IMG/VR virus record: IMGVR_UViG_3300021425_000248 | Coordinates: 1 to 20,044 of that record | Length of the DNA stretch: 20,044 bases | Reading direction: 5' to 3' (one strand) | Origin: a virus | Shown here: positions 4,001-17,438 of the stretch, piece after piece | How positions within the stretch are numbered: position 1 is the first letter of the stretch | Layout: each line of letters opens with the position of its first letter | The notes under the pieces: model-generated | What the model was told of the DNA's origin: nothing | The model's input: only the letters and a program-made list of their open reading frames with translations | Databases searched by the model: none | Made by a program: the position numbers and the translations under genes

Positions 4001-4426
4001 ATGGCATACAGTAAGCAAGTATTAGATCATTATGAGAATCCCAGAAATGTCGGCAAGATGGACGAGAACGATCCTAATGTAGGCACTGGTATGGTTGGAG
4101 CACCTGCATGTGGAGACGTTATGCGACTTCAAATTAAGGTAGAAAACAACATTATTACTGATGCCAAGTTTAAGACTTATGGATGCGGTAGTGCTATTGC
4201 GTCTTCTAGTCTTCTGACTGAGTGGGTCAAAGGCATGAATCTTGAGGATGCAAGTCAGGTTAAGAATACACAACTAGCCGAAGAACTTGCTCTCCCACCA
4301 GTAAAGATTCACTGTTCAGTCCTTGCAGAAGATGCTATAAAGACTGCCGTAAAAGATTATCAGACGAAAGTTAGTAAGGAATCTGCCCAAAAGAAAAGGC
4401 AACCAAAAGTTGCCTTCTCTAAATAG
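4001..4426 (+). CDS. iscU: IscU iron-sulphur cluster scaffold protein
   Basis: The product is very close to bacterial IscU, the scaffold on which IscS and its partners build [2Fe-2S] clusters before transfer to target proteins. All key residues are present: C37 and D39 (PACGD), C62 (YGCGSAIASSS), H104 and C105 (KIHCS). The HscA chaperone recognition motif LPPVK (98 to 102) and the opening MAYSKQVLDHYENPRNVG are near identical to the E. coli type as I recall it. The body is full length to about residue 122. After it comes a basic tail (KVSKESAQKKRQPKVAFSK) not expected in cellular IscU, and its last codons overlap a terminator-like hairpin. No iscS, iscA or hscA is near, so it would have to work with host partners. 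It is probably an auxiliary metabolic gene taken from a proteobacterial host. The ribosome site is AGAGGTG ten bases upstream. Confidence 0.95.
   Translation: MAYSKQVLDHYENPRNVGKMDENDPNVGTGMVGAPACGDVMRLQIKVENNIITDAKFKTYGCGSAIASSSLLTEWVKGMNLEDASQVKNTQLAEELALPPVKIHCSVLAEDAIKTAVKDYQTKVSKESAQKKRQPKVAFSK
4396..4416 (+). terminator. Terminator-like hairpin inside the 3' end of iscU
   Basis: AAGGCAAC (4396-4403) and GTTGCCTT (4409-4416) form a perfect 8-bp stem around a CAAAA loop. Three more pairs are possible beyond one mismatch (AGA at 4392-4394 with TCT at 4418-4420). The tail CTCTAAATAGTTTG is only weakly U-rich, so termination may be partial. The stem lies in the codons of the extra IscU tail. 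Confidence 0.55.
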
Positions 4427-5729: not shown

Positions 5730-6785
5730 ATGAGTATGGAAGTATACGAAAAGATCGGAGAAAACCTGAACTCTATCGTAAAGATAAAGAATTATCAGGT
5801 TGCTCCTTTGTATCCAAAAGGTAAACCAGGAACAAACGACAAGTCTGTTCGTGAGTTTAGGCTTCAACTTATCAATAAGAATGACGATACAAGCCAAGCA
5901 GTAATTGATCATTTAAAGATGCAGTTACGCAAAGATACTAGTCTTGAGAGTGTGACTTTCAATTCCATATCTCCAAATAGTTCTAAGTTTCCTAGCTACA
6001 GTTTCACATTTAACGGTCTGAAGTTTGACATCATCATAGCAAGAGGTGCGAATGCAGGTGAAAAGTTTGAGGTAAGAACAGTTAAGACTCTTGACAACTA
6101 CTTTAAAACTCGCACAGACAATGAAACTTCTGAGGTCGTGAATATGATGAGTGAGTCATATGCTCCCTTTGCTAACGCAGAAATCGTTAGTGCTGTGCAG
6201 AGAACTGGTGCCACTAAGAAAGAAGGCATACCGATAGATAAGCTTGGTGCGATTATCGGTGATATTATACTGACTGATAATCAAGGCAACCCGTGGTACA
6301 TATCTCTCAAAGACATAAACGGTAATACATTCAGTTCGTATTCTGGAGCCGCTTCTTTGTTTGATAGAGAAGGTAATTTACAGCCCAATTCAGCTGGCGC
6401 TACCTTTCTAAAGACATTTGGAGTCGATCTAAACAAGGTCCAAGCTGGGTTTGATGAACGAGGTAATATAAATAAAGTTAGACCGAAACTCGCAGTACCT
6501 AGAGCCAACGCAAGAGAGATCGAAAAGATTTTCAATAGGGCATGGGGTATGAACTATTTTTATGTACGGCGTATGCGAACTGGGTGGAAAGTCTTCTGGT
6601 TAGGCAAAGATAAGCTGGATAAGTTATCTCAAAATATAAAGATTGATGATATAAGATATCCATCTACAAAGTCTAAGCAGATTACGATATTATGTAGTAA
6701 TACTGTTGAAGACTATGTAATTGAGTTAAGAAATTCTAAAGCTGGTGAATACCCAAACGATACTAAATTCAAGGTTAAAAAATGA
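5730..6785 (+). CDS. Possible restriction-like nuclease-fold protein
   Basis: This gene encodes a 351-residue protein. The part from about residue 95 to 200 resembles a PD-(D/E)XK nuclease core: GLKFDIIIARG, a helix with E112 (GEKFEVRTVKTLDNYF), then D178 in AIIGDIILTD, and the strand WYISLKD with S192-x-K194. The usual acidic residue before the lysine is serine here, so it may be an inactive or altered member. A C-terminal domain has FNRAWGMNYFYVRRMRTGWKVFW. Two starts are possible (5730 and 5736); I keep 5730. The stop TGA shares bases with the next ATG (ATGA at 6782). The nuclease idea is an inference from motif order, strengthened by the nuclease-like gene that follows. A DNA-binding structural protein is the main alternative. 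Confidence 0.6.
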   Translation: MSMEVYEKIGENLNSIVKIKNYQVAPLYPKGKPGTNDKSVREFRLQLINKNDDTSQAVIDHLKMQLRKDTSLESVTFNSISPNSSKFPSYSFTFNGLKFDIIIARGANAGEKFEVRTVKTLDNYFKTRTDNETSEVVNMMSESYAPFANAEIVSAVQRTGATKKEGIPIDKLGAIIGDIILTDNQGNPWYISLKDINGNTFSSYSGAASLFDREGNLQPNSAGATFLKTFGVDLNKVQAGFDERGNINKVRPKLAVPRANAREIEKIFNRAWGMNYFYVRRMRTGWKVFWLGKDKLDKLSQNIKIDDIRYPSTKSKQITILCSNTVEDYVIELRNSKAGEYPNDTKFKVKK

Positions 6786-7585
6786 CAGTCAGATTTAAAA
6801 GTTTTATTACCGAATCAGTCGGTGCAAAAGGACTAGCATACGAAAAGAAAGTTTTCGATGCAATGAAGTCTGCTGGAGTGAAGGGATTAGACGTTGGTAG
6901 TAAACCAGGTGCAGGATACAGTAATCAAGGCGCAGGTGATATTGAAGCATTATACAACGGTAAAGAATTCAATATCGAAATCAAATTAGACAAGAATGCT
7001 CAAATGGGCGGTACGTCTATACGAATAGATACATTAAATAAGACCCACACTTTAGTCAAACCGGATGCGGTAGACGATGACGCCATTCCATTTTTTATAG
7101 AAGCGGCAAAAAAGCAAGACAAAGCACTTAAAGAATGGGTCAACTTTATTCGTAAGCAAGAGCCAGTAGCATTTCACAAAAAAACACCATACACAATTCC
7201 TTTCGGTTCAGTCACTAAAGAAGCGTGGTCAGCGGCACAGAAAGCTGGCTATCTTGGTAAGATGAACGCAATCCAATCTTTCGACTCAGCAAAAACAATA
7301 GCTAAAGCATATAACCGAAAGAATGTGTATTATATACAAATCGGTAAAGCAGGTCTTTTTTATCTAGGAAGCAATCCCTTAAAATTAGATGTTCCAGAAT
7401 ATAAAGGATCTGTTAATATCGAATTTAGATTAGGACCATCTGGAAGTAAAGCAAGAAAAATAGAAGGCGAAGACTATCGTGTTGTTGGCGCTGGATATCG
7501 TTGTCAAGGCAGACTGAAGACTAATATCAAGTCTAAGTACAGTCTCGATAATCCCGAAGACGTAAAGAAATTATTTGGAGCATAG
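6782..7585 (+). CDS. PD-(D/E)XK nuclease-like protein with head-targeting-like leader
   Basis: This gene encodes a 267-residue protein. The N-terminus MTVRFKSFITESVG resembles the T4 capsid targeting leader (MKTYxEFIAEA), with a prohead-protease-like site I-T-E before S12. The mature part begins AKGLAYEKKVFDAMKSAG and contains the expected restriction-like nuclease residues: E21 in the first helix, D53 (GAGDIEAL), then E66 and K68 in FNIEIKLD. The order and spacing fit an active PD-(D/E)XK core, which cuts DNA with a metal ion. The remainder (about 90 to 267) is unassigned, with strands near YYIQIGKAGLFYLG and a basic C-terminal half. It overlaps the preceding gene by ATGA, and its end contains the ribosome site GGAG for the ligase-like gene. 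The nuclease call is probable; packaging into the head is an inference from the leader. Confidence 0.75.
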   Translation: MTVRFKSFITESVGAKGLAYEKKVFDAMKSAGVKGLDVGSKPGAGYSNQGAGDIEALYNGKEFNIEIKLDKNAQMGGTSIRIDTLNKTHTLVKPDAVDDDAIPFFIEAAKKQDKALKEWVNFIRKQEPVAFHKKTPYTIPFGSVTKEAWSAAQKAGYLGKMNAIQSFDSAKTIAKAYNRKNVYYIQIGKAGLFYLGSNPLKLDVPEYKGSVNIEFRLGPSGSKARKIEGEDYRVVGAGYRCQGRLKTNIKSKYSLDNPEDVKKLFGA

Positions 7586-7586
7586 A

Positions 7587-8816
7587 ATGCAACGCCTTTC
7601 ATCATTTTTGACTGAAGACAAAAACACTCACATGGAACACCTCGAAGACAACTTGCTAAATGCAGGTGTCGATGGAGCAAGACAGTCTATAAACTATCTA
7701 CGATCTCTACGTGATATGTTGGCAGGTAATTCTCGTTCCGCAGTTAATGTAACTGTCAAATGGGACGGTGCTCCAGCAGTGTTTGCAGGCATTGATCCTT
7801 CAGACGGTAAGTTTTTTGTTGCGAAGAAAGGCATCTTCAATAAGAACCCTAAGGTCTATAAGACTAAAGCGGATGTTGATGCTGATACAAAAGGTGATTT
7901 GAATATAAAAATGAATTTGGCATTGAAACATTTGCCATCTATGAATATTAAAGGAGTGATACAAGGTGATTTCCTATATGCGAAGAAAGATATTAAGAAA
8001 GTGGAGATTGATGGAGAATCGTATATTACTTTTCATCCTAATACGATTGTTTACGCTATACCAGCGAAAAGCCCGCTTGCTTCTAAAATCCTCAGATCCG
8101 AGATCGGTGTGGTTTGGCACACTAACTACAGAGGAAAATCTTTTGAATCAATGTCAGCGTCTTTTGGAGAAAAGATCGCAAGCAATCTCAAAGACACGAG
8201 GTCAGTCTGGTCAGTAGACGCAGTATATAAAGATGTAACTGGTAACGCCACAATGACAAAAACAGAGACAGATGCGGTTACTCTGCTATTATCAGCCGCA
8301 GGTAAACAATTCAATAAAGTAAACAAAGCAACGTTTGATGGCATAACAGAGAACGAAGAGTTGCTTACAAGAGTTAAAACATATCTGAACGTAAAAGTAC
8401 GTGCAGGTGAAAAGATTGCAGATCCTTCTAAGTTTGTTACTGACATGGTAAGCTGGATCTATGAGTACTACCAAAAAGAAATTGACAAACTAAAGTCCGA
8501 AAAAGGTAAAGCCGGTAGAGCGGAAAGACGAAAAGAAGTAATGGCATATTTTTCAAACGTTGACAAGTCTCAAATTGTCGCATTGTTTGAACTGTATAAT
8601 ATGATCGTTGAAATAAAACTACTCATTATCAGTAAGCTAGACAAAGCAAAGGCTATTGGCACTTTCTTAAAAACAAAAGATGGTTATAAAGTCACAGAAC
8701 AAGAGGGCTTTGTTGCAATCGATAGAATGGGTAAGAATGCAGTTAAGCTTGTAGATCGAATGGGCTTCTCAAAAGCAAACTTCTCAGATGAGTTCATCAA
8801 GGGCTGGCAGAAGTAA
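7587..8816 (+). CDS. KxDG ligase/nucleotidyltransferase-like protein
   Basis: This gene encodes a 409-residue protein from ATG 7587, six bases after GGAG (7577-7580). It opens MQRLSSFLTEDKN, again like a head-targeting leader with L-T-E at residues 8 to 10. The motif VKWDGAP (K58, D60, G61) matches motif I (KxDG) of DNA/RNA ligases and capping enzymes, where the lysine carries the nucleotide. Further conserved blocks are GVIQGDFLY (123-131, similar to motif III), ITFHPNTIVYAI, and IGVVWHTNY (173-181, possibly motif IV). A helical C-terminal half follows. I recall this family in marine T4-like phages as an uncharacterised domain (possibly DUF6267; not checked). Joining of DNA or RNA ends is the likely reaction, but substrate and activity are inferred. 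It directly follows a nuclease-like gene. Confidence 0.7.
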   Translation: MQRLSSFLTEDKNTHMEHLEDNLLNAGVDGARQSINYLRSLRDMLAGNSRSAVNVTVKWDGAPAVFAGIDPSDGKFFVAKKGIFNKNPKVYKTKADVDADTKGDLNIKMNLALKHLPSMNIKGVIQGDFLYAKKDIKKVEIDGESYITFHPNTIVYAIPAKSPLASKILRSEIGVVWHTNYRGKSFESMSASFGEKIASNLKDTRSVWSVDAVYKDVTGNATMTKTETDAVTLLLSAAGKQFNKVNKATFDGITENEELLTRVKTYLNVKVRAGEKIADPSKFVTDMVSWIYEYYQKEIDKLKSEKGKAGRAERRKEVMAYFSNVDKSQIVALFELYNMIVEIKLLIISKLDKAKAIGTFLKTKDGYKVTEQEGFVAIDRMGKNAVKLVDRMGFSKANFSDEFIKGWQK

Positions 8817-8873
8817 GTCATTTGCCGCATCACGGGTATTCGGATTTAGCATCACAAAAAATCACTTTTAGTG

Positions 8874-8881
8874 TATAAATA
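8874..8881 (+). promoter_or_regulatory. Late promoter, perfect TATAAATA
   Basis: This is an exact match to the T4 late consensus, 52 bases before the GTG at 8933. An 8-bp inverted repeat (8884-8891 with 8897-8904, TGTCAA/TTGACA core) lies at the expected start of the transcript and may form a leader hairpin. Confidence 0.8.
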
Positions 8882-8932
8882 AATGTGTCAACAAGATTGA
8901 CATAAACACAACATACACATAAGGAGATGAAT

Positions 8933-9184
8933 GTGACGCAAATGGTACTTACTGCCGCAAGCTTTCTCAATCTATCATTCATCGTAGACATTTACATGAA
9001 CGTAATGAAGCGATGGTCTGATCGAAGAGAAGTTAAAAGAACAATCAAAGAATTAAACAAACTTACAGACCGTGATCTAAGAGATTTAGGTATTAGTCGT
9101 GGAGAAATATATTCCGTAGCCACCGGAGCATGGAGCAGAGATTCTGAAATTCGTACAAATGAAAATTTACGGGGGTGGGTCTAA
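8933..9184 (+). CDS. DUF1127-containing small protein
   Basis: This gene encodes an 83-residue protein. I choose GTG at 8933 because it is six bases after AAGGAG (8921-8926); the in-frame ATG at 8927 directly abuts that site and ATG 8942 is too far. Residues about 35 to 65 (VKRTIKELNKLTDRDLRDLG, then ISRGEIYSVATG) match the DUF1127 pattern 'T..EL..L.DREL.DIGISRGEI'. DUF1127 proteins are small arginine-rich bacterial proteins. Some are reported to bind RNA and to affect RNA turnover and metabolism in alphaproteobacteria. The N-terminal part has a hydrophobic helix (MVLTAASFLNLSFIVDIYM). It is probably taken from a host and made late in infection. RNA interaction in this phage is an inference. 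It is joined to the next gene by TAATG. Confidence 0.8.
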   Translation: MTQMVLTAASFLNLSFIVDIYMNVMKRWSDRREVKRTIKELNKLTDRDLRDLGISRGEIYSVATGAWSRDSEIRTNENLRGWV

Positions 9185-9363
9185 TGACAGCTTTAGTAAG
9201 CAACTATGTATTTTCACCTTTATCGGGATTGTGGTCTTCACTAGATCGGTATTCGCAGATGGTGGGTTACTCACGGGCAGCGGCGGAACTCGCAAGGCAG
9301 GGTTACCACGAGGAATCGAAACAGTGCATGATGTATCTCAAAGAGGTCATGTCCAGTAAATGA
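9184..9363 (+). CDS. Small partner protein of the DUF1127 gene
   Basis: This gene encodes a 59-residue protein from ATG 9184, overlapping the DUF1127 stop by one base (TAATG). The ribosome site is the G-rich run GGGGGTGGG (9171-9179). An earlier in-frame GTG at 9175 lies inside that run. The protein begins MTALVSNYVFSPLSGLWSSL, and its second half, GYSRAAAELARQGYHEESK, resembles the 'YxRAAxxLAxxGYHEEAK' segment of small proteins found with DUF1127 genes in proteobacteria. That memory is not checked. The two genes seem to have been acquired as a pair. No catalytic motif is visible; it is probably a helical accessory protein. Confidence 0.7.
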   Translation: MTALVSNYVFSPLSGLWSSLDRYSQMVGYSRAAAELARQGYHEESKQCMMYLKEVMSSK

Positions 9364-9369
9364 TAAATA
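9362..9369 (+). promoter_or_regulatory. Possible late promoter, GATAAATA
   Basis: This box matches the consensus at seven of eight positions, with the usual following G, but it overlaps the stop of the preceding gene and lies only 19 bases before a strong terminator hairpin. It could drive the 9433 gene by read-through, or be a chance match. Confidence 0.4.
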
Positions 9370-9387
9370 GACTATGAAGTCTAACAA

Positions 9388-9416
9388 AAAGCAGGCTTCT
9401 TGCCTGCTTTCGCTTT
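9388..9416 (+). terminator. Rho-independent terminator
   Basis: AAAGCAGGC (9388-9396) and GCCTGCTTT (9402-9410) form a perfect 9-bp stem around TTCTT, followed by CGCTTTTAT. An A-run lies on the left side (AACAAAAA), so it could stop transcription from both directions. It closes the DUF1127 group. Confidence 0.85.
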
Positions 9417-9432
9417 TATAAAGGAGAATATT

Positions 9433-9594
9433 ATGAATTGGTTAAAAAACAGATTAATGGAACGCACATCTTGGGATGGTGGAGTTCTTATCGCAGTTGG
9501 AGTAATCGCTCTTATGTTTCAAGGTTTAATCGGCTGGGCAGCATATGGTGCAATTGCTTATGGTATCTTTACATTAGTTAAATCAGAGGATTAA
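9433..9594 (+). CDS. Small membrane protein, 53 residues
   Basis: The start is ATG 9433, six bases after AAGGAG (9421-9426); the upstream extension of this frame runs through the terminator and is not real. The product begins MNWLKNRLMERTSWDGGVL and then has two short hydrophobic stretches (VLIAVGVIALMFQGLIG and WAAYGAIAYGIFTLV), enough for one long or two short membrane passes. It ends KSED. I recognise the NRLMERTSWDG start from small membrane proteins of marine phages. Function is unknown to me; a holin-like role is possible since a lysin gene is present at 13821. It is followed after two bases by the 9597 gene. Confidence 0.8.
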   Translation: MNWLKNRLMERTSWDGGVLIAVGVIALMFQGLIGWAAYGAIAYGIFTLVKSED

Positions 9595-9596
9595 TT

Positions 9597-10076
9597 ATGG
9601 AATTTGTTGATATGACAAAGAATGAACTTGAGGCATATGGTCGCACAGTTGGCATTGAATTGGATAGAAGACTTACTAAAGCAGTGCTTATTGAACAACT
9701 TAATGAGCATATTGAAAATGCTGAAGTTGAACTTTCAGATGAATTGAGTGATCCTGTATATCTAGATGCAGAGATTGAAGAGGAAGATTTTCCAATAACT
9801 GGTGAAGATCATCCATTAATGCCAAAAGAAATGCCAGCTATTAAAGAAGAGCCTGTAGATCCTTTGGTTGCAATTCAAGCAGAAAAAGACGCAAGGCGTG
9901 GCATTCAAAACTATTCGGAAATGCTACGTCAAGCAGAAGAAAAATATCAGATACTAAAAGATAAGCGTATCAGTGCTGAAGTATTAGAACTAGAAGCACT
10001 TACAGAAGTGGAGGTTGCTAGAAAAAATCTAGCTAGTGTCCAGAAGGCATGGGAAGACAGTAAGGAACTACTGTAA
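9597..10076 (+). CDS. Protein with SAP-like N-terminus and C-terminal coiled coil
   Basis: This gene encodes a 159-residue acidic protein. Residues 5 to 38 (DMTKNELEAYGRTVGIELDR, then RLTKAVLIEQLNEHI) look like a SAP or HeH fold, a short helix-extended-helix domain that binds DNA in many proteins. An acidic, proline-containing linker (about 40 to 90) follows, then a long helix with heptad spacing (AEEKYQILKDKRISAEVLEL to the end). This could be a DNA-associated virion or tail-assembly factor. It has a short gap to the membrane protein before it. The start has no strong SD (TTAATT), so coupling to the upstream gene is likely. The SAP assignment is based on the pattern K-x-E-L-x(n)-G-I-E-L-x(4-6)-K only. 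Confidence 0.7.
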   Translation: MEFVDMTKNELEAYGRTVGIELDRRLTKAVLIEQLNEHIENAEVELSDELSDPVYLDAEIEEEDFPITGEDHPLMPKEMPAIKEEPVDPLVAIQAEKDARRGIQNYSEMLRQAEEKYQILKDKRISAEVLELEALTEVEVARKNLASVQKAWEDSKELL

Positions 10077-10078
10077 TT

Positions 10079-10086
10079 TATAAATA
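10079..10086 (+). promoter_or_regulatory. Late promoter, perfect TATAAATA
   Basis: This is an exact late consensus followed by GTAC, three bases after the preceding stop and 57 bases before the 10143 start. The leader between contains GTAG/CTAC inverted repeats (about 10105-10133) that could form small alternative hairpins. The ribosome site is GAGGAAAA. Confidence 0.8.
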
Positions 10087-10142
10087 GTACATAACACATC
10101 GTTGTAGTAAGACTACGGTAAACCTACGATAGAGGAAAAGAA

Positions 10143-13100
10143 ATGCAAGACGATTCTATGGAAAATCCAGAGGCAAACTCTGGTGAAGAAACGACTTCTA
10201 AAAAGAAGACGGATAAGACAGAGAAGTCAAAGAAGACTTCGAAGAAAGTGAAAGATGAACTCTTAGTGAAGAACGCTATTGAGATCAATCCCAAGCTTGA
10301 AGAAGCTCCAAACAAGACAGTGGTTTTGGGTTGGGGCAGAATGAATCCAATTACTGTTGGACATGAAAAGCTAGTCAACAAAATCAAATCTGTCGCAAGA
10401 TCAGAAGCGGCAACACCACTGATCTATGTTTCTCATAGCCAAGACGCTAAGAAAAATCCTCTAGACTACGATGATAAGATCATGCTTGCAAAGAAAGCAT
10501 TCGGCAACATCATCGTAAAGTCCAATGCTCGTACTATCATCCAAATCATGCAAGAGTTGCAGAAGAAATTCTCTAAGGTAATTCTCGTTGTTGGACAAGA
10601 TCGAATCAAGCAATTCGATGAACTACTCAACAAGTACAACGGTAAAGACTACAACTTCGACAATATCTCTATTGTATCTGCTGGTGATCGTGACCCAGAC
10701 TCAGAGGGAGTTGAGGGCATGTCTGCATCTAAGATGAGAGCCGCAGCCTCGCAAGGCGATTTCAAAAAATTCAAAACAGGTCTACCTCGAAGACTCCAAT
10801 CAGATGCACAAGATGTATATGATATGGTACGTGGTGGCATGAAGATCGCTGAGATGCTAGAACTTGATGAAGCATTAACTATCCAACAAAGACGCATGAG
10901 AGCAATCACAATGCGTAAGTACAAGTCTAAGATTGCTCAAGGTCGCAGACGTATGGCTAAGAAAGCCGCTTCAATGGACAAGTTGAAGTTACGTGCAAGA
11001 AAGGCTGCCATTAAAATCATTCGTAAGAAAGTTGCTGGAAAGAAGGGCGAGAAGTACAATAGCCTATCTCCTTCTGAGAAGATGCTTATTGATAAGCGAG
11101 TGGCAACAAAGAAATCTGCAATCGACAGAATCGCAAAGAAGTTACTGCCAAAAGTCAGAAAAGCAGACCTTGCTAAACTGTCAGGTAAAAAGATAAATGA
11201 AGAGTTTGAATCATTCTTAATGAACGAAGAATTCACTGCACTGTTCGAAGAGCCTACTACAGGACAAGACCCAGATATCAAAGATAAGAAGGGTACACAG
11301 CCTGCAGTATACTACAAGGGTCTGGCAAAGTCAACTAAAGACAAGCGTGACGCACATTTCAAAAAGCATGGCAAAAAAGATGATGACGATAACTCAGCAT
11401 ACAAGCCTGCACCAGGTGATGCAGAAGCAGAGACTAAGCCATCAAAGCACACTAAGCGATATCATCAAATGTTTGGCAAAGAAGGCGCTGTTAAATTAGA
11501 TCGCCGCTTTCGTGCATTCAGACAACGCAAAGAAGAAGTTGAACTAGACGAAATTACTATTAAAACTGATGCGGAAAAACGTCTAAAGACTCAACACAAA
11601 GATGAGAGAGAAAACCTTTCTAAAGAGCATGAGCGTGAAATGGACGCACTGTTGACTAGAGAGTTACGTAAAAAAATTACAAGTATCAACAAAGAAGAGT
11701 TTGATACCGATGATGCTCTAATTCAGTTTATTGAAGAGACTACAAACGACATCTTTGATCAAGTATCACTTGATGAAGCAAAGGGCAATGAAGGTCTAAA
11801 GAAGAAAGCTGAAAAGTCTGGAATGCCACTTAGCATTCTACGTCAAGTATATAACAGAGGCATTGCCGCTTGGAAAACTGGTCATAGACCTGGTACTACT
11901 CCACAGCAATGGGGCTTTGCACGTGTTAACTCTTTCATTACTAAATCATCAGGCACATGGGGCAAAGCAGACGCAGACCTAGCCGCTAAAGTACGTGGCT
12001 CTTCTAAGAAAGAAGAGATAGAAGAAAAGTTAAAAGTATCTGATGGAGTAGGTGCATGGGTTAAGGATTTCCAAAAATCAGACGCACCACAATTTGCAGG
12101 TAAGTCAGATGAGAAGATTCGTCAAATGGCAATCGCCGCTTTCATTGATGCGAAACAAAGCTTAGAAGAAGGTGCGGTATCTCCTGCACAACGTGCCGCT
12201 ATTGCTATCTCTAAGAAAGCAAAAGCCGGCAAGCCTGGATACGACAGTGAAGGTAAATCTTTAAAAGAAAAAGATGATCCTTGCTGGGATTCCCATGAGC
12301 AAAGAGGCATGAAAAAGAAAAACGGTAAGCTAGTGCCTAACTGTGTGCCTAAAAACGAAGAAGTTTCAGTCGATGATATGTTTGAGGAATTCGTAGAGAG
12401 TAAAGATGCGGCTGAAGGATATGTGGTAAATAAAGTTAAGTCTGTTACAGTTAATAAAAAGGCATATCAACATGCACTGAAAACATTAAAAGATTTGATT
12501 ACTCGTAAGAAGAAAGAAGCCGGCGGTAGAGGCATGAAGCATGGATCTGGTTACTATGCTCAACAGATTGCCAAGACTTACAGTAACGTAGATCATAAAG
12601 TACTACACAATATGTTAGGTGAAAAGTATGTTATTGAAGTTGGAGGTGCAGGAGATAGAGGTACTGAAAAAGTTACTAAGCGTTACAAGAAAGATACTCC
12701 TGGTGAAAGCGTATCAGAGAGCGAAGGACCAGTGCCTAAGCCAATCTCTCAGATGACAGATAAGCAGAAAGAGGATCTAAGACACAAGCAAGCCGCAGAG
12801 CGTGAACGCAATCTACGTAGAATCAAGCAAGGCAATACTGAAGCAGAACGTAAGCGTAAAGCCGCTGATCGTGAGCGTAGACTAGCACAGAATATGAAAA
12901 AATTAAAGGATATGCGTAAATCTGATAAGTCTTGGGGTAAATCAAGCGCATTTGATCATCACGAGGAAGTAGAACTTGATGATTTATTCGAATCACATTT
13001 CAGCGAAGAAGTTACACAAAAACAGTTGAACGATTTAGAACGATTCGCTGATAGATTGCTTGACAAGTTTGGCATTGACGTAGAATTCACTAAGCATTTT

Positions 13101-13364
13101 GCAGATAGAATGAATGATGCCCGCAATAAGCCTGCTATCACAATCGCTGAACTTCAGAGAGTGTTTAAAAAGATCGCAAAGAACAAAGCGAAGAACATTC
13201 GTCAAAATCCTGACATTGAAGCAGTGCTTAAAGATATTCAGGCAGACTTGAACTTGCCTATCGTCATTAACTACGATAGTGAAAAGGACGAGTATGAAGT
13301 AGTTAACAAAACTATTATGCGTAAGAAGAACTTTGGTACATCAAGCAAAGTGATTAAGGTATGA
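10143..13364 (+). CDS. Multi-module protein with NMN-adenylyltransferase-like domain
   Basis: This gene encodes 1073 residues in one frame. A charged Lys/Glu-rich lead (1-55) is followed by a nucleotidyltransferase fold (about 57-235): GRMNPITVGHEKL (65-77) carries the (T/H)xGH motif, LVVGQDRIKQFDELL is the middle block, and GMSASKMR (192-199) matches the ISxSxxR end motif. It resembles NMN adenylyltransferase, which makes NAD from NMN and ATP; the true substrate is unknown. Next come separate modules joined by sites like L-D-E: an Arg/Lys-rich block (244-345), a basic module ending RRFRAFRQRKEEVELDE (375-470), a coiled coil (475-510), a GLKKKAEKSG module (546-620) that I recall as DUF5824, PAQRAAIAISKKAKAGKPGY with CWDSHEQRGMKKK (679-735), a helical YYAQQIAKTY module (760-850), a charged helix (870-925) and a C-terminal EFTKHFADRM module (951-1073). 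Probably a packaged, cleaved head protein. Confidence 0.75.
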   Translation: MQDDSMENPEANSGEETTSKKKTDKTEKSKKTSKKVKDELLVKNAIEINPKLEEAPNKTVVLGWGRMNPITVGHEKLVNKIKSVARSEAATPLIYVSHSQDAKKNPLDYDDKIMLAKKAFGNIIVKSNARTIIQIMQELQKKFSKVILVVGQDRIKQFDELLNKYNGKDYNFDNISIVSAGDRDPDSEGVEGMSASKMRAAASQGDFKKFKTGLPRRLQSDAQDVYDMVRGGMKIAEMLELDEALTIQQRRMRAITMRKYKSKIAQGRRRMAKKAASMDKLKLRARKAAIKIIRKKVAGKKGEKYNSLSPSEKMLIDKRVATKKSAIDRIAKKLLPKVRKADLAKLSGKKINEEFESFLMNEEFTALFEEPTTGQDPDIKDKKGTQPAVYYKGLAKSTKDKRDAHFKKHGKKDDDDNSAYKPAPGDAEAETKPSKHTKRYHQMFGKEGAVKLDRRFRAFRQRKEEVELDEITIKTDAEKRLKTQHKDERENLSKEHEREMDALLTRELRKKITSINKEEFDTDDALIQFIEETTNDIFDQVSLDEAKGNEGLKKKAEKSGMPLSILRQVYNRGIAAWKTGHRPGTTPQQWGFARVNSFITKSSGTWGKADADLAAKVRGSSKKEEIEEKLKVSDGVGAWVKDFQKSDAPQFAGKSDEKIRQMAIAAFIDAKQSLEEGAVSPAQRAAIAISKKAKAGKPGYDSEGKSLKEKDDPCWDSHEQRGMKKKNGKLVPNCVPKNEEVSVDDMFEEFVESKDAAEGYVVNKVKSVTVNKKAYQHALKTLKDLITRKKKEAGGRGMKHGSGYYAQQIAKTYSNVDHKVLHNMLGEKYVIEVGGAGDRGTEKVTKRYKKDTPGESVSESEGPVPKPISQMTDKQKEDLRHKQAAERERNLRRIKQGNTEAERKRKAADRERRLAQNMKKLKDMRKSDKSWGKSSAFDHHEEVELDDLFESHFSEEVTQKQLNDLERFADRLLDKFGIDVEFTKHFADRMNDARNKPAITIAELQRVFKKIAKNKAKNIRQNPDIEAVLKDIQADLNLPIVINYDSEKDEYEVVNKTIMRKKNFGTSSKVIKV

Positions 13365-13819
13365 AGAAGTTTAAAAACTTTGTAGCAGAACTTAAGGTCT
13401 ATGAGCCTAAGTCAACTGACACTCTCGGATTTACGAGAGATAAGATGCCACAAGTCCGATCGCAAGATTATGATGGACTGATTAAGCATCTGAAGAAGAA
13501 TAACGTGGGCGTCAGAAAAAGAAAAGTGCCTGCAAAGAGTTTGAAGCCTATTCAGAAAGAGTTTAACAAAGATAAGGTTGTAGGGGCAATCGCTAAGATC
13601 AAGACTCTTGGTCAAGCAAAACCTCTGATTGTGAGCAAAGATAACTATATCATTGATGGTCATCACAGATGGTTAGCCGCTAGAAATGTAGGTGGAGATA
13701 TCGATATCATGCAAGCAGATGTGAAAGTCCATGAATTATTAAAACACGTGTACAGCTACCCAAAGACTTTCACAAAAAAGATACACGAAGGGAATGAAAA
13801 TGTTTTGGAGAAAAAATAA
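13361..13819 (+). CDS. ParB/sulfiredoxin-like protein with head-targeting-like leader
   Basis: This gene encodes a 152-residue protein. It starts MKKFKNFVAELKVYEPK, very close in pattern to the T4 capsid targeting leader (MKTYxEFIAEA), with V-A-E at residues 8-10. Residues about 60 to 125 match a ParB-like fold: KPIQKEFNKDKVVGAIAKIK, then QAKPLIVSKDNYIIDGHHRW, where I98-D99-G100-H101-H102-R103-W104 is the hallmark box of this superfamily. Members bind DNA, hydrolyse CTP or act as nucleases; which applies here is not shown. A basic C-terminal segment follows. It overlaps the modular protein gene by ATGA. A packaged DNA-acting protein is plausible, and a regulator is the main alternative. Confidence 0.75.
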   Translation: MKKFKNFVAELKVYEPKSTDTLGFTRDKMPQVRSQDYDGLIKHLKKNNVGVRKRKVPAKSLKPIQKEFNKDKVVGAIAKIKTLGQAKPLIVSKDNYIIDGHHRWLAARNVGGDIDIMQADVKVHELLKHVYSYPKTFTKKIHEGNENVLEKK

Positions 13820-13820
13820 A

Positions 13821-14675
13821 ATGAGTAAATTTGAATTAACAAAAGAAATGCTAGGAGCAATGATTCCTACTAATAAAGAAGTAGACAAGTGGTATGATGC
13901 AATTGTAGAGATACTTCCTAAGTATGACATCACTACTCCTGAAAGAATTGCAGGCTTTATCGCACAGTGCGCCCATGAAAGTGGAGACTTTAAAAGCCTT
14001 GAAGAGAATCTAAACTATAGCGAAAGTGCATTGACTAGAGTGTTTGGCCGATACTTCGGCAAGCCACCAAAGCGCAGTGCAAAAGAATACGCACGTAATC
14101 CAGAGATGATTGCTAATTATGTATACATGGATGAATTCCGTAAATATAAAATGGGCAATGTTAAAGAGGGTGACGGATGGTTATTTAGAGGTCGTGGACT
14201 GAAGCAACTTACTGGTCGTGATAACTATACTAAGTTTGGTAAGACTGTAGGTATGAGTGCTGAACAAGCCGCTGAGTATGTAGCAACAGAAAAGGGTGCT
14301 ATCGAAAGCGCATGTTGGTTCTGGAAAACTGCTAAATTAAATGCCATCGCAGATAAATGCGATATTGTTAAAATGACTAAGAAGATTAATGGTGGCGATA
14401 TTGGCTTGGCAGATAGAACTAAGCGTTACAATGCCGCTATCGAAATTTTGGGTGGAAAGATTCCTGCTACCAAAAAGTCTAGCGTGAAGCATACGACTGT
14501 AGGTGTTGGAGACAGAGGAGATACTGTTGCGGCTGTACAGAAAGCACTCGGTATTGGAGCTGATGGTATTTTTGGACCTGGTACTAAGCGTACATTAAAA
14601 GCATGGCAAGCCGCAAATGGTTTGACTGCTGATGGAGTAGCTGGTCCTGTAACGTTAAAGAAACTATTAGGATAG
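13821..14675 (+). CDS. Endolysin: GH19 lytic domain plus peptidoglycan-binding domain
   Basis: This is the lysin that cuts peptidoglycan at the end of infection. I choose ATG 13821 (284 residues), ten bases after GGAG (13807-13810); the in-frame ATG at 13794 would add nine basic residues. The N-terminal 210 residues are a GH19 (chitinase-like) domain with FIAQCAHESGDFKSLEENLN, where E53 and E62 are the expected catalytic pair, and GDGWLFRGRGLKQLTGRDNY (117-136). Residues about 226 to 283 are a PG_binding_1 domain (GDRGDTVAAVQKALG, DGIFGPGTKRTLKAWQAANG). No signal peptide is visible, so it would need a holin. It follows the ParB-like gene after one base and precedes small virion-type genes, which is unusual for a lysin. 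Confidence 0.92.
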   Translation: MSKFELTKEMLGAMIPTNKEVDKWYDAIVEILPKYDITTPERIAGFIAQCAHESGDFKSLEENLNYSESALTRVFGRYFGKPPKRSAKEYARNPEMIANYVYMDEFRKYKMGNVKEGDGWLFRGRGLKQLTGRDNYTKFGKTVGMSAEQAAEYVATEKGAIESACWFWKTAKLNAIADKCDIVKMTKKINGGDIGLADRTKRYNAAIEILGGKIPATKKSSVKHTTVGVGDRGDTVAAVQKALGIGADGIFGPGTKRTLKAWQAANGLTADGVAGPVTLKKLLG

Positions 14676-14679
14676 TAAG

Positions 14680-14916
14680 ATGATTAAAAAGTTCAGCGAC
14701 TTTAGAACAGAAGCAAAAGACTCAGGCGAATACGATAACGAAGGTGGTATGGCTAAGACCCAACTGCGTGGTGTTATTGCTGATGCGGATCATATGATCA
14801 AGATGTTTGGTGACGATGACAATTTGCCAGAGTGGGTACAAAACAAGATCACTAAGGCAGCCGATTATCTAAATTCTGCTCATCGATACATGATGAACAA
14901 GGATGGAGAAGAGTAA
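14680..14916 (+). CDS. Small virion-type protein with head-targeting-like leader
   Basis: This gene encodes a 78-residue acidic protein beginning MIKKFSDFRTEAKDSGEY. The first eleven residues fit the same leader pattern as 6782, 7587 and 13361 (F-x-x-F-x-x-E before A). The rest, NEGGMAKTQLRGVIADADHM and DDDNLPEWVQNKITKAADYL, is a module I recognise as a recurring piece of marine T4-like phage proteins, sometimes fused to other modules. It is probably a helical pair with a WVQ turn. No enzymatic motif is present. It lies four bases after the lysin and overlaps the next start (TAATG). A small internal head protein is the best inference. Confidence 0.75.
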   Translation: MIKKFSDFRTEAKDSGEYDNEGGMAKTQLRGVIADADHMIKMFGDDDNLPEWVQNKITKAADYLNSAHRYMMNKDGEE

Positions 14917-15134
14917 TGGCTTGGGTTACAGTTACAAATAACACAGAGTGGGAATACGATAATGCGGCAACAGCATCGGATACGTATTCAGACACTCCTG
15001 GTACTATAAGTGGTGGTATTAGAACGTTTACGTTACCTGGTGGTAACGCTAGACAGACATACATCAAGTGTAGAAAAACTAGTAACCCACCAGGAACAGG
15101 CGAACTAGACAAAACATATTGGGACGCACAATAA
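14916..15134 (+). CDS. Small beta-rich protein, 72 residues
   Basis: The product begins MAWVTVTNNTEWEYDNAATA and is rich in Thr, Ser and Gly, with strands such as IRTFTLPGG and QTYIKCRKT and an ending LDKTYWDAQ. The composition is that of a small beta-sheet structural protein. I recognise the MAWVTVTNNTEWEYDNAAT opening from marine phages but know no function. The start overlaps the preceding stop, with GGAGAAG just upstream, and its own stop overlaps the next start (TAATG). It has no leader, so it may be a virion or tail component rather than internal cargo. Confidence 0.7.
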   Translation: MAWVTVTNNTEWEYDNAATASDTYSDTPGTISGGIRTFTLPGGNARQTYIKCRKTSNPPGTGELDKTYWDAQ

Positions 15135-15490
15135 TGAAAAAGTTTAAAAAATTTAACGAAGATACAATAGATGCCGTATGTGAAGAGTGCGACATTTATG
15201 CAGATTTGGTTTTAGAAGCATCTGAGTATGAAGGAAGAAAGGTTACGCTGAACGACCCTTTCAGACTTCCCAGCGGCTCTAAAAGAAAATTTGGAGTGTA
15301 CGTTAAGAATGAAAAAGGTAATGTAGTGAAAGTGCAATTTGGTGATCCTAACATGGAAATCAAACGTGACGATCCTGCAAGAAGAAAGAGTTTTAGGGCA
15401 AGACATGGATGTGACAATCCTGGTCCAAAATGGAAAGCGAAATACTGGTCATGCTATCAATGGAGAGCAGGCTCAAAGGTCGATAACTAA
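15134..15490 (+). CDS. Small basic virion-type protein with possible leader
   Basis: This gene encodes 118 residues from the ATG that overlaps the previous stop (15134). It opens MKKFKKFNEDTIDAVCEECD, a weaker version of the leader pattern. A site V-L-E before A-S lies near residue 33 (LVLEASEYEGRK). The rest contains PSGSKRKFGVYVKNEKGNVV, KVQFGDPNMEIKRDDPARR and RARHGCDNPGPKWKAKYWSC, a conserved module of marine T4-like phage proteins with strands and two cysteines. It is basic enough to bind DNA. Function is unknown. The late promoter of the next gene starts on its stop codon. Confidence 0.75.
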   Translation: MKKFKKFNEDTIDAVCEECDIYADLVLEASEYEGRKVTLNDPFRLPSGSKRKFGVYVKNEKGNVVKVQFGDPNMEIKRDDPARRKSFRARHGCDNPGPKWKAKYWSCYQWRAGSKVDN

Positions 15491-15524: not shown

Positions 15525-16247
15525 ATGTTTAAGAAACCAGAAAACATCAGACCACTACCAGACGGTATGGTAGATGCGTTCACTGCTAAAGTATCATCTC
15601 AGGGATATAAAATGCCTGAAGCAGAGCCTGTCGTAGAAGCTGAAGTTGAAGCACAGCCTGAAGAAGTATCAGAAGCAGTGGCATCACGTAGCGCAGATAA
15701 GACTAAGCCAGGAGATGGTGACACTAAAATGCCTAAAGTTGCAGATGTGACTCCAGAGATTGGCATGATCTCATCAAAAGATAAGGCAGCCAAGTCTGTA
15801 GAAACAGCAGTCAAAGCCGCTTCAAAGTCTCAGCACGAAGGATTTGAGATTATTCAAGATGGCGGTAAAGTAGAACTTGAAGACGTAGTGCAAGAAGCAA
15901 CTATGGATGAGAAAGCTTGCGTTGGCGAAATGAAAAAGTTAAATGCTTCTTCATGCTCAAAGCACGAAATGTACAAGAGAGTGAGCGAGAAGTACGGTTG
16001 TTCAGAGGCAAAGTTTGAAGAACTATATGCTCAATATTGTAAAGAGACTTATGAAGGTGTTCAAGAAGACAACACTAATGACAAGTCAGATGATGGTGAA
16101 GGTATGGACAAAGTTCAACCTAAAGCTGTTAAAAAGAAGTTTGATGATCGTAAAGATAAAGACATCGATAACGATGGCGATGAAGACGAATCTGATGAGT
16201 ACTTACATAAGCGTAGAAAAGCAATCTCTAAAGCGTTGGAGGACTAA
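15525..16247 (+). CDS. Modular acidic protein with Cys-helix module and EF-hand-like loop
   Basis: This gene encodes a 240-residue protein. Residues 1-30 (MFKKPENIRPLPDGMVDAFT) form an N-terminal module, followed by an acidic Glu/Val-rich linker (31-55). The part 104-124 ends VELEDVVQEATMD, where V-Q-E before A125 fits a prohead protease site. Residues 125-172 form a helical module with four cysteines (C132, C144, C159, C172). The last module, KFDDRKDKDIDNDGDEDESD then EYLHKRRKAISKA, holds a calcium-type loop D213-x-D215-x-D217-G with D224 at position 12, like EF-hand and dockerin loops. I recognise this last module from many marine phages. Function is unknown. A scaffold, core or internal virion protein is likely. 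The next gene begins directly after the stop. Confidence 0.75.
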   Translation: MFKKPENIRPLPDGMVDAFTAKVSSQGYKMPEAEPVVEAEVEAQPEEVSEAVASRSADKTKPGDGDTKMPKVADVTPEIGMISSKDKAAKSVETAVKAASKSQHEGFEIIQDGGKVELEDVVQEATMDEKACVGEMKKLNASSCSKHEMYKRVSEKYGCSEAKFEELYAQYCKETYEGVQEDNTNDKSDDGEGMDKVQPKAVKKKFDDRKDKDIDNDGDEDESDEYLHKRRKAISKALED

Positions 16248-17438
16248 ATGTCTGATGAACTAAACGAAAAATTTAGTCCTAAGCAGATCAAGCAAGCGAT
16301 TGGTATTGCGTCTGATAAACGATATGCTGGTGGTAATATGACTGGTGCAACAAAGACTATCGAAAAATTAGCAAGAGGTCTATCAGATCATCCACAAGTT
16401 AGGGCGGTACTTAAGCGTCAAAACGAAGATGTGAATGAGAAGTTCGATCCTGCTGATCTTGACTTAGTTGCAACTGACAAAGATAAGGCTAGTGCTAAGA
16501 TGAACATCATCATGCAGTTACGTAAAGCGGCTGATGTCAGAGGCAATCTACCTATTCAATTTGCTGACGGTAAGAAAGCTAAGTTGCCTCCAAAGGTTAT
16601 TGAACTTGCGCTTAAGAAGTTTGCTTCTTTCCGTAAGCCAGATAGTAAAGAGAAACTTCAAACTGCAATGGGCAAATCATACAAAGATATGGTACATGCT
16701 CTGAAGACTATGCGTGAAGAAGTTGAACTTGACGAAGGCGTAGACAAGGCTAAGATTCAAAAGCAAATCGACCAAGCAGAAAAGTATCTTAAGACTTTCT
16801 TTGGTAACACATCTTCTGTTAAGATGAAGAAAGTTGCTATTCAGAGAAAAATTGATAAGCTGAAAAAGCAACTCAATGAAGCAACTGATGAAGATTACTG
16901 TGACTGTGGTTGCGAGTGTGGTAAAAAAATATGCGAGTCATGCGGTAAGCCACATAAGCCAGAAAACATCAAAGAGTCTAAGATGGCTGGATGGGTAGCA
17001 ATTTATAACGGCAAGAAAGTAGAGATCAAAAAGAGTGAAGCAAATGATCTATACGGAGCCAAAATGAAGGCTGCCAAGATGCTAAAAGTGCCTAAGTCTA
17101 AGATGGGTCTTCTAGCTATCAAGCCTGGTTATAACGAAGAGGTTGTCAATGAAGAAGTCCAACAAGACCTTCAAGAAGCGCCTAATTACAAGCTCTATCA
17201 TAACACTTTTAGTGGTGCAGTGCAAGAAGCAATTGCAGTTGCTAAGAAAAAGGGATTTGATGTTGATGAAGACGATTGGCATGATAAAGTTGCTACTGGC
17301 CCTAGAAAGCCTAGCAAAGATAAGACCAACTCTTACTCAATCAAGTTGATGAAAAATGGCAAGCCAGTTCGTCAAATGCTTCAGATTCAAGTATATAATA
17401 TGGGCGCAAAGTACGAACTGAACACTTACGTACAATAA
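16248..17438 (+). CDS. Modular protein with predicted protease sites and Cys-rich peptide
   Basis: This gene encodes 396 residues, with a ribosome site GGAGG at 16239-16243. Four sites of the type hydrophobic-x-E before A, G or S fall between recognisable modules: L161-D-E|G, L209-N-E|A, I241-K-E|S and L308-Q-E|A. They would release an N-terminal part (with FSPKQIKQAIGIASDKRY and a second helical module), a 48-residue coiled helix pair, a 32-residue peptide with six cysteines in 15 residues (CDCGCECGKKICESC, 218-232), a MAGWVAIYNGKKVEIKKSEA module, and a C-terminal YKLYHNTFSGAVQEAI module ending YELNTYVQ. The last two I recognise from marine T4-like phages. The Cys cluster probably binds zinc or another metal. 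Processing in the prohead is an inference. Confidence 0.75.
   Translation: MSDELNEKFSPKQIKQAIGIASDKRYAGGNMTGATKTIEKLARGLSDHPQVRAVLKRQNEDVNEKFDPADLDLVATDKDKASAKMNIIMQLRKAADVRGNLPIQFADGKKAKLPPKVIELALKKFASFRKPDSKEKLQTAMGKSYKDMVHALKTMREEVELDEGVDKAKIQKQIDQAEKYLKTFFGNTSSVKMKKVAIQRKIDKLKKQLNEATDEDYCDCGCECGKKICESCGKPHKPENIKESKMAGWVAIYNGKKVEIKKSEANDLYGAKMKAAKMLKVPKSKMGLLAIKPGYNEEVVNEEVQQDLQEAPNYKLYHNTFSGAVQEAIAVAKKKGFDVDEDDWHDKVATGPRKPSKDKTNSYSIKLMKNGKPVRQMLQIQVYNMGAKYELNTYVQ

Follow-up and report, generated by a model that had tools for sequence, protein, structure and literature searches.

Probable T4-type capsid targeting leaders and candidate fused cargo proteins in a marine T4-like phage

Results

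The window, by which we mean the whole stretch of DNA that was analysed, is a 20,044-base IMG/VR record with 30 genes, called by a simple script that set some starts wrongly (later corrected). By its sequence the virus is a marine T4-like myophage: T4-type genes in the window include a RecA-like gene, a primase-helicase and others, and the nearest isolates are C48C1, Stenotrophomonas phage DLP6, Methylophilales phage Melnitz and Pelagibacter phage HTVC008M. The record is a fragment, and no prohead protease gene lies within its 20 kb. A 71.9-kb contig (G008) whose DUF6267 gene is 96% identical to that of the window carries a Peptidase S77 gene (E 9e-38), as does every T4-like isolate genome checked, and in relatives leader genes adjoin the prohead protease gene. 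The features of the window are collected in Table 1; genes are named by the position at which they start.

Table 1. Leaders, bodies, fused proteins and predicted cut sites in the window. The arrow marks the predicted cut; numbers within sites are residues.
Feature	Position	Strand	Basis
CTS-like leader MTVRFKSFITE↓ of 267-aa protein	6782..6814	+	T4-derived pattern match; conserved in distinct homologues
Body, PD-(D/E)XK nuclease-like	6815..7585	+	AlphaFold2 model; invariant E66, K68
CTS-like leader MQRLSSFLTE↓ of DUF6267 protein	7587..7616	+	Column conservation in 54 homologues
Body, DUF6267, RNA-ligase/nucleotidyltransferase fold, KWDG motif	7617..8816	+	PF19782 E 7e-111; model
1073-aa fused cargo protein (candidate)	10143..13364	+	PF01467, PF19141, phrog_3041; (E)xLxE linkers join domains
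Predicted site NPKLEE54↓A before nucleotidyltransferase domain	10302..10304	+	LxE↓A retained where relatives differ at the N-terminus
Predicted site LELDE243↓A	10869..10871	+	Junction tests
Predicted site VELDE470↓I	11550..11552	+	Conserved in close relatives; family outside restricted test
Predicted site VSLDE545↓A before DUF5824	11775..11777	+	Junction test
Predicted site EIEE628↓K	12024..12026	+	Junction test
Predicted site SLEE676↓G	12168..12170	+	Junction test; stand-alone gene
Predicted site MFEEFVE752↓S, CTS-like F-x-x-F-V + E	12396..12398	+	Junction test
Predicted site LFESHFSE955↓E before phrog_14518 domain	13005..13007	+	Junction test
CTS-like leader MKKFKNFVAE↓ of ParB-like protein	13361..13390	+	T4-derived pattern match
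Body, ParB-like, related to DarB-like antirestriction proteins	13391..13819	+	PHROG ParB-like profiles; tblastn
CTS-like leader MIKKFSDFRTE↓ of 78-aa protein	14680..14712	+	Looser pattern only
Small body of 14680 protein	14713..14916	+	Recurs fused in larger proteins after ..E↓AKDPGEYDN
Targeting half-leader MKKFKKF + spacer to predicted site DLVLE28↓A	15134..15217	+	Aromatics 4, 7; family boundary
Body, HVA1-family-like small domain	15218..15490	+	phrog_7595; tblastn matches annotated HVA1 family protein
Likely fused cargo without N-terminal leader, predicted site VVQE124↓A	15525..16247	+	Domains common to other cargo; inferred
Likely fused cargo, predicted sites LNE7↓K, LDE163↓G, IKE243↓S, LQE310↓A	16248..17438	+	Domains recur elsewhere

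Leaders and the T4 pattern

The sequence-only reading had proposed that five genes (6782, 7587, 13361, 14680 and 15134) share a T4-like leader, and all five N-termini were found in place. For the first four, the match to the T4 capsid targeting sequence (CTS) was confirmed in sequence. All four T4 determinants, namely hydrophobic residues at 4 and 7, I/L/V at 8 and E at 10, are present in MTVRFKSFITE↓S (6782, whose register is shifted by one relative to T4), MQRLSSFLTE↓D (7587) and MKKFKNFVAE↓L (13361); the P1′ residue is D at 7587 and L at 13361, where A, S or G is more usual. MIKKFSDFRTE↓A at 14680 has the two aromatics and the E, with R where I/L is expected, and 15134, which had rightly been called weaker, has the aromatics of MKKFKKFNED without E at 10. 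15134 has the targeting half, and its cut likely lies further in, at VLE28↓A; members of its family conserve a site L-V-[LVT]-E↓A ahead of the body, at residue 28. All five leaders are hydrophobic or aromatic at the targeting residues 4 and 7, again with a shift of one in 6782 and 14680.

Our main pattern was built solely on the T4 IPIII determinant positions, with a register shift of one allowed. It matched three of the 30 window genes, where the rate at internal positions predicts 0.03 (P 6e-6); a looser T4 pattern matched four, with 0.07 expected (P 7e-7). Among relatives, the T4-only pattern was observed four times in C48C1 (0.17 expected), three times in Melnitz-3 (0.13) and three times in KVP40 (0.26), whereas the non-T4 phages SPO1, T7 and FelixO1 had no match. 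Strict leaders were also absent from HTVC008M, phiM9, phiM12 and S-PM2, and the one strict match in each of Syn9 and DLP6 is not significant alone. A PSSM scan agrees with the T4-only pattern; since the PSSM was partly trained on the window, it is circular for the window and T4 and independent only for other phages, and the T4-only pattern was therefore used for the final numbers. An initial loose regular expression matched 1–2% of any position and was discarded as unselective and unconvincing alone.

The expectation that the leader is conserved while bodies vary was borne out in homologues. In 54 DUF6267 homologues, 52–81% identical to that of the window, residue 4 is F/L in 54/54, residue 7 F/Y in 51, residue 8 L/I in 53 and residue 10 E in every one, while residues 2, 3, 5, 6, 9 and 11 vary freely (entropy >2.2 bits). 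As only positions 4, 7, 8 and 10 are conserved, the leader follows the T4 pattern of determinants. Cyanophage DUF6267 proteins without the leader begin exactly at the body (MATQNKHLEH, MSKNTHLEH or MAKNTHLEH), so that the leader can, to judge from these starts, be lost. The leader of 13361 is likewise conserved, with variable filler, in 10 of the homologues listed, and homologues of 14680 begin MKSFKELRE↓AKDPGEY or MKTFATFVAE↓AKDPNEY.

Bodies behind the leaders

The bodies had been called nuclease-like, ligase-like and ParB-like, and our searches agree with all three. Over residues 15–267, the AlphaFold2 model of 6782 resembles HhaI endonuclease at Z 8.9 (181 residues aligned at an rmsd of 5.5) and Hjc resolvases at Z 7.4 (101 residues aligned, rmsd 3.6), both moderate scores, and E66 and K68 are invariant. 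The matches of the DUF6267 model are Naegleria RNA ligase (Z 8.6; 186 residues aligned at an rmsd of 3.8) and T4 RNA ligase 2 (Z 6.8; 174 residues aligned), again at moderate Z, and the DUF6267 body carries the KWDG motif; a DUF6267 profile search of PDB sequences found nothing. Neither model was assigned a fold by Foldseek alone, and these matches come from a second look with VIA-align. The leader is modelled with very low confidence in each case and lies apart from the folded body, with pLDDT <50 at residues 1–13 of 6782. PHROG profiles identify the ParB-like body at 13361, for which tblastn also matched Burkholderia phage proteins annotated DarB-like. The 14680 body had no match in Pfam or PHROG.

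Beyond the window, dozens of unrelated bodies in the fetched viral loci carry the leader. Phages freely exchange the gene upstream of DUF6267: its bodies range from 81 to 475 residues, belong to different families and in many cases bear a leader of their own. Altogether 37 body families in these loci include at least one protein with the leader, where chance would give about 6, and in 23 of the 37 the leader occurs in at least half of the members. Leader-bearing bodies include HD, HAD-phosphatase-like, zeta-toxin-like and RimK ATP-grasp proteins, and many leader bodies had no family in a Pfam search. The bodies are thus unrelated, as had been noted; the further statement that a common leader is hard to explain by descent was too strong, because a leader can spread by shuffling.

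Virion proteomics of relatives

Published virion mass spectrometry detected leader-bearing nucleotidyltransferases in three cyanophages: S-CREM2, with leader MKNFSSFLTE↓A (MKNFSSFLTEADEK; PMC10665884), S-SZBM1, with MRFRQFIIE↓A (MRFRQFIIEAVAA; PMC9146016) and S-SCSM1, with MKSFLQFLKE↓A (MKSFLQFLKEAAES; PMC9602691). As these are orthologues of a different cargo found in three virions, they support the packaging reading. Both strict-leader proteins of S-CREM2 were among the virion detections, and a protein with the linker EEVELDE was detected in the S-SCSM1 virion. The leaderless DUF6267 protein whose gene adjoins that of the S-SZBM1 nucleotidyltransferase was absent from the virion detections, and a strict-leader orthologous family of about 105 residues (S-SZBM1_191, S-SCSM1_30) went undetected in the virions of both phages. 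Over the three cyanophages, four of six strict-leader proteins were detected, compared with a rate of about 18% for proteins overall; a binomial estimate made by hand on this small sample puts P at roughly 0.01. Abundant proteins can contaminate CsCl preparations, as the same papers point out (PMC10665884, PMC9146016, PMC9602691).

Candidate fused cargo and sites between domains

Three further proteins of the window, those at 10143, 15525 and 16248, look like fused cargo from their domain content. The 1073-residue protein at 10143 combines a cytidylyltransferase/NMNAT-like domain, a Lys/Arg-rich segment, DUF5824, a phrog_14518 domain and other recurring domains, and segments of it are single genes elsewhere, several of them leader-bearing. 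The boundary E↓ is identical in single leader genes and in fused linkers. Thus DUF5824 stands alone as MLTFKSYLNE↓DATAGLKK and reads VSLDE↓AKGNEGLK in the window; the SPAQ domain is MKSLKDLRE↓AVSPAQQ alone and SLEE↓GAVSPAQR in the window; and the C-terminal domain of the 16248 protein is MKSFKNFIE↓ARGSNYEVYHK alone (locus L108) and LQE↓APNYKLYHN in the window. The phrog_14518 domain is a stand-alone gene in Melnitz-3 with the start MKTFLQFE, and the counterpart of the domain behind MFEEFVE752↓S is a frame in locus L054 that begins MFEEFISEKRSTQD.

Junction sites in the window and domain borders of the fused protein were first drawn by eye, and the sites were then tested in other contexts. The test covered seven domain families with 79 mutually dissimilar upstream contexts, considered pre-domain residues only and left the window context out; it replaced a first count in which window boundaries had been set at LxE and close orthologues were included. 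The motif [LIVMF]xE occurs at 61 of the 79 independent junctions, where shuffles that preserve composition give 21.3 and randomly chosen places 6.4, whereas the controls LxD (4 vs 6.6) and LxK (0 vs 4.9) are not enriched. Like sites are found in the gp22/gp23 proteins of relatives, assigned by T4 analogy (NLDLDE↓AKATG, SLLNE↓AAPANATG, FLSE↓AAPTNSTG); gp22 and gp23 are cut in T4.

The nucleotidyltransferase protein of the window (10143) has no N-terminal leader and retains only the LEE↓A part, which counts against the targeting reading. Nucleotidyltransferases of relatives read KGFKEF...TINE↓A, like T4 IPI.

Discussion

The T4 targeting leader has been described on a handful of coliphage internal proteins. 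Our analysis indicates that the leaders described here are very probably capsid targeting sequences like those of the T4 internal proteins. The T4 CTS itself is already known, from the internal proteins IPI, IPII and IPIII (Mullaney and Black 1996, reviewed in PMC9026906), and the leaders here are a variant of the T4 type. According to that review, mutants of T4 IPIII tie targeting to residues 4 and 7 and processing to residues 8 and 10 (PMC9026906). With this T4 CTS, as there described, the window's leaders share a length of about 10 N-terminal residues, the hydrophobic positions 4 and 7, I/L at 8, Glu at 10 and the attachment to unrelated bodies, and a gp21-type protease exists within the lineage of the window phage. 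Moreover, the T4 IPI variant with a distal site, MKTFKEF...TITE↓A, has counterparts in 15134 and in the nucleotidyltransferases of relatives. Unlike in T4, the cargo set of the marine lineage is far larger and enzymatic, the filler residues are unconserved, and there is candidate fused multi-domain cargo with a predicted cut site between domains. A literature search, with subscription papers outside its scope, returned no report of a CTS in marine T4-like phages.

For the window's own proteins we infer targeting, cutting, delivery and function as follows. Hydrophobic residues 4 and 7 would bind the prohead core, so that unrelated proteins would be drawn into the growing head, and a gp21-like prohead protease would cut after Glu 10 and free the mature protein inside the capsid. 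The mature cargo would then probably enter the next cell along with the DNA. The cargo repertoire would be large and quickly changing, with nuclease, RNA-ligase-fold, ParB-like, nucleotidyltransferase, HAD, HD, ATP-grasp and zeta-toxin-like proteins. Cargo genes would also fuse with the protease site kept between domains, and the fusions would probably be cut into separate products in the prohead. At a probability of roughly 0.55, we favour the reading that marine T4-like phages make fused cargo "polyproteins" which, once inside the prohead, the gp21-like protease cuts into as many as nine separate products. Given the shared tag and a giant protein that appears to string such cargo together, the virus would probably deliver a large enzyme toolkit with its DNA.

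The strongest competitor, which we consider doubtful though worth weighing, accepts that the leaders target the head and takes the LxE stretches of fused proteins as flexible acidic linkers or core-binding motifs, the fused proteins staying uncut in the virion. The linkers are indeed acidic, the reversed motif E-x-[LIVMF] is enriched as well (31 vs 21.3), F-x-x-F in some linkers could act by binding, and no cut product of any fused protein is known. Against this, the boundary at E is the same in single leader genes, LxE and not LxD or LxK is favoured beyond composition, and sites of the same kind occur in gp22/gp23 of relatives. Improbable by comparison is the suggestion that the leader is a localisation helix for something other than the head, for instance one that anchors host-takeover proteins expressed in the cell to a membrane or the replisome, or that it tags them for degradation. 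The DUF6267 protein has a weak predicted helix at residues 4–13 and several bodies resemble nucleic-acid or nucleotide enzymes, but an invariant E10 and the T4 conservation pattern would be unexpected for a plain anchor, virions contain leader-bearing orthologues, and the leader genes lie next to the prohead protease. That the likeness reflects chance and composition can practically be dismissed: basic, aromatic starts are frequent in phage proteins, a loose pattern fits 1–2% of all positions and the single strict matches in Syn9 and DLP6 carry no significance, yet the strict pattern reaches its low P in the window with none in three non-T4 phages, and leader conservation in 54 divergent DUF6267 homologues contradicts it.

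Most leader-bearing marine cargo is annotated "hypothetical protein". If the leaders are targeting sequences, a simple sequence rule would predict the dark-matter genes whose products travel in the virion and are the first to act in infection, as well as the positions at which these products are cut. The sites between domains suggest that the prohead protease also processes polyproteins. If fused cargo is indeed cut in the prohead, cargo genes could move freely between a single leader-bearing and a fused form.

Several other systems carry, or are proposed to carry, proteins in the head. In phage P1, the antirestriction protein DarB also has an N-terminal head-packaging signal (PMC9024508), and the ParB-like domain of the window matches proteins annotated DarB-like; in contrast, the P1 authors found no consensus among the Dar N-termini, and the signal, which may be a different motif, is longer than 9 and lies within 30 residues (PMC9024508). 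Inner-body and ejection proteins of phiKZ and SPN3US resemble the window's predicted cargo in that many of them are taken into the head and cleaved after Glu by a prohead protease that relies on few further determinants; they belong to a different phage group, and no shared 10-residue leader of the CTS kind was found in the part of the review available to us (PMC9026906). Polyvalent proteins (Iyer et al. 2017, PMC5512222) are likewise large and multi-domain, combine ParB-like with other effector domains and are proposed to travel in the head and to be injected (PMC5512222). Several effector-type domains are also found in the 1073-residue protein (PF01467, PF19141, phrog_14518). Unlike in polyvalent proteins, the domains of the window also occur singly with a CTS, and their junctions carry a site resembling that of the prohead protease.

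Leader-bearing proteins and related N-termini

Published virion mass spectrometry of the cyanophages S-SZBM1 and S-SCSM1 did not detect their orthologous ~105-aa leader-bearing proteins (..SESVNISGDFNGNLY); products of the adjoining genes were detected in the virions. The full capsid targeting pattern also begins a 54-aa T4 frame which is not among the classical internal proteins, and the C-terminus of the S-SCSM1 virion protein ORF93 (KRTFKEFLEYIE) is CTS-like. In the window, the endolysin lacks a leader and is flanked on both sides by leader-bearing genes.

Three small, closely spaced genes of a different phage (locus L153) start with MKLKSLMKESE, MKKLELRQMIQEA and MKKSELRQMIKEV, and may perhaps share another N-terminal signal. 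Separately, the window encodes a frame which, by eye, we take to resemble an IscU/NifU-type Fe–S scaffold protein, a gene unusual in phages.

Coordinates of the features discussed
Feature	Location	Strand	Description
~105-aa protein	S-SZBM1 122311-122628		leader-bearing
Ortholog	S-SCSM1 44215-44535		leader-bearing
54-aa frame	T4 NC_000866 18966-19130	minus	N-terminus MKTFKEFIKEDMVAG
ORF93	L388 (S-SCSM1 locus) 7127-7336		
Endolysin	window 13821-14675		glycoside hydrolase 19 and peptidoglycan-binding domains
Three small genes	L153 6369-7959		
Scaffold-like frame	window 4001-4426		N-terminus MAYSKQVLDHYENPRNVG
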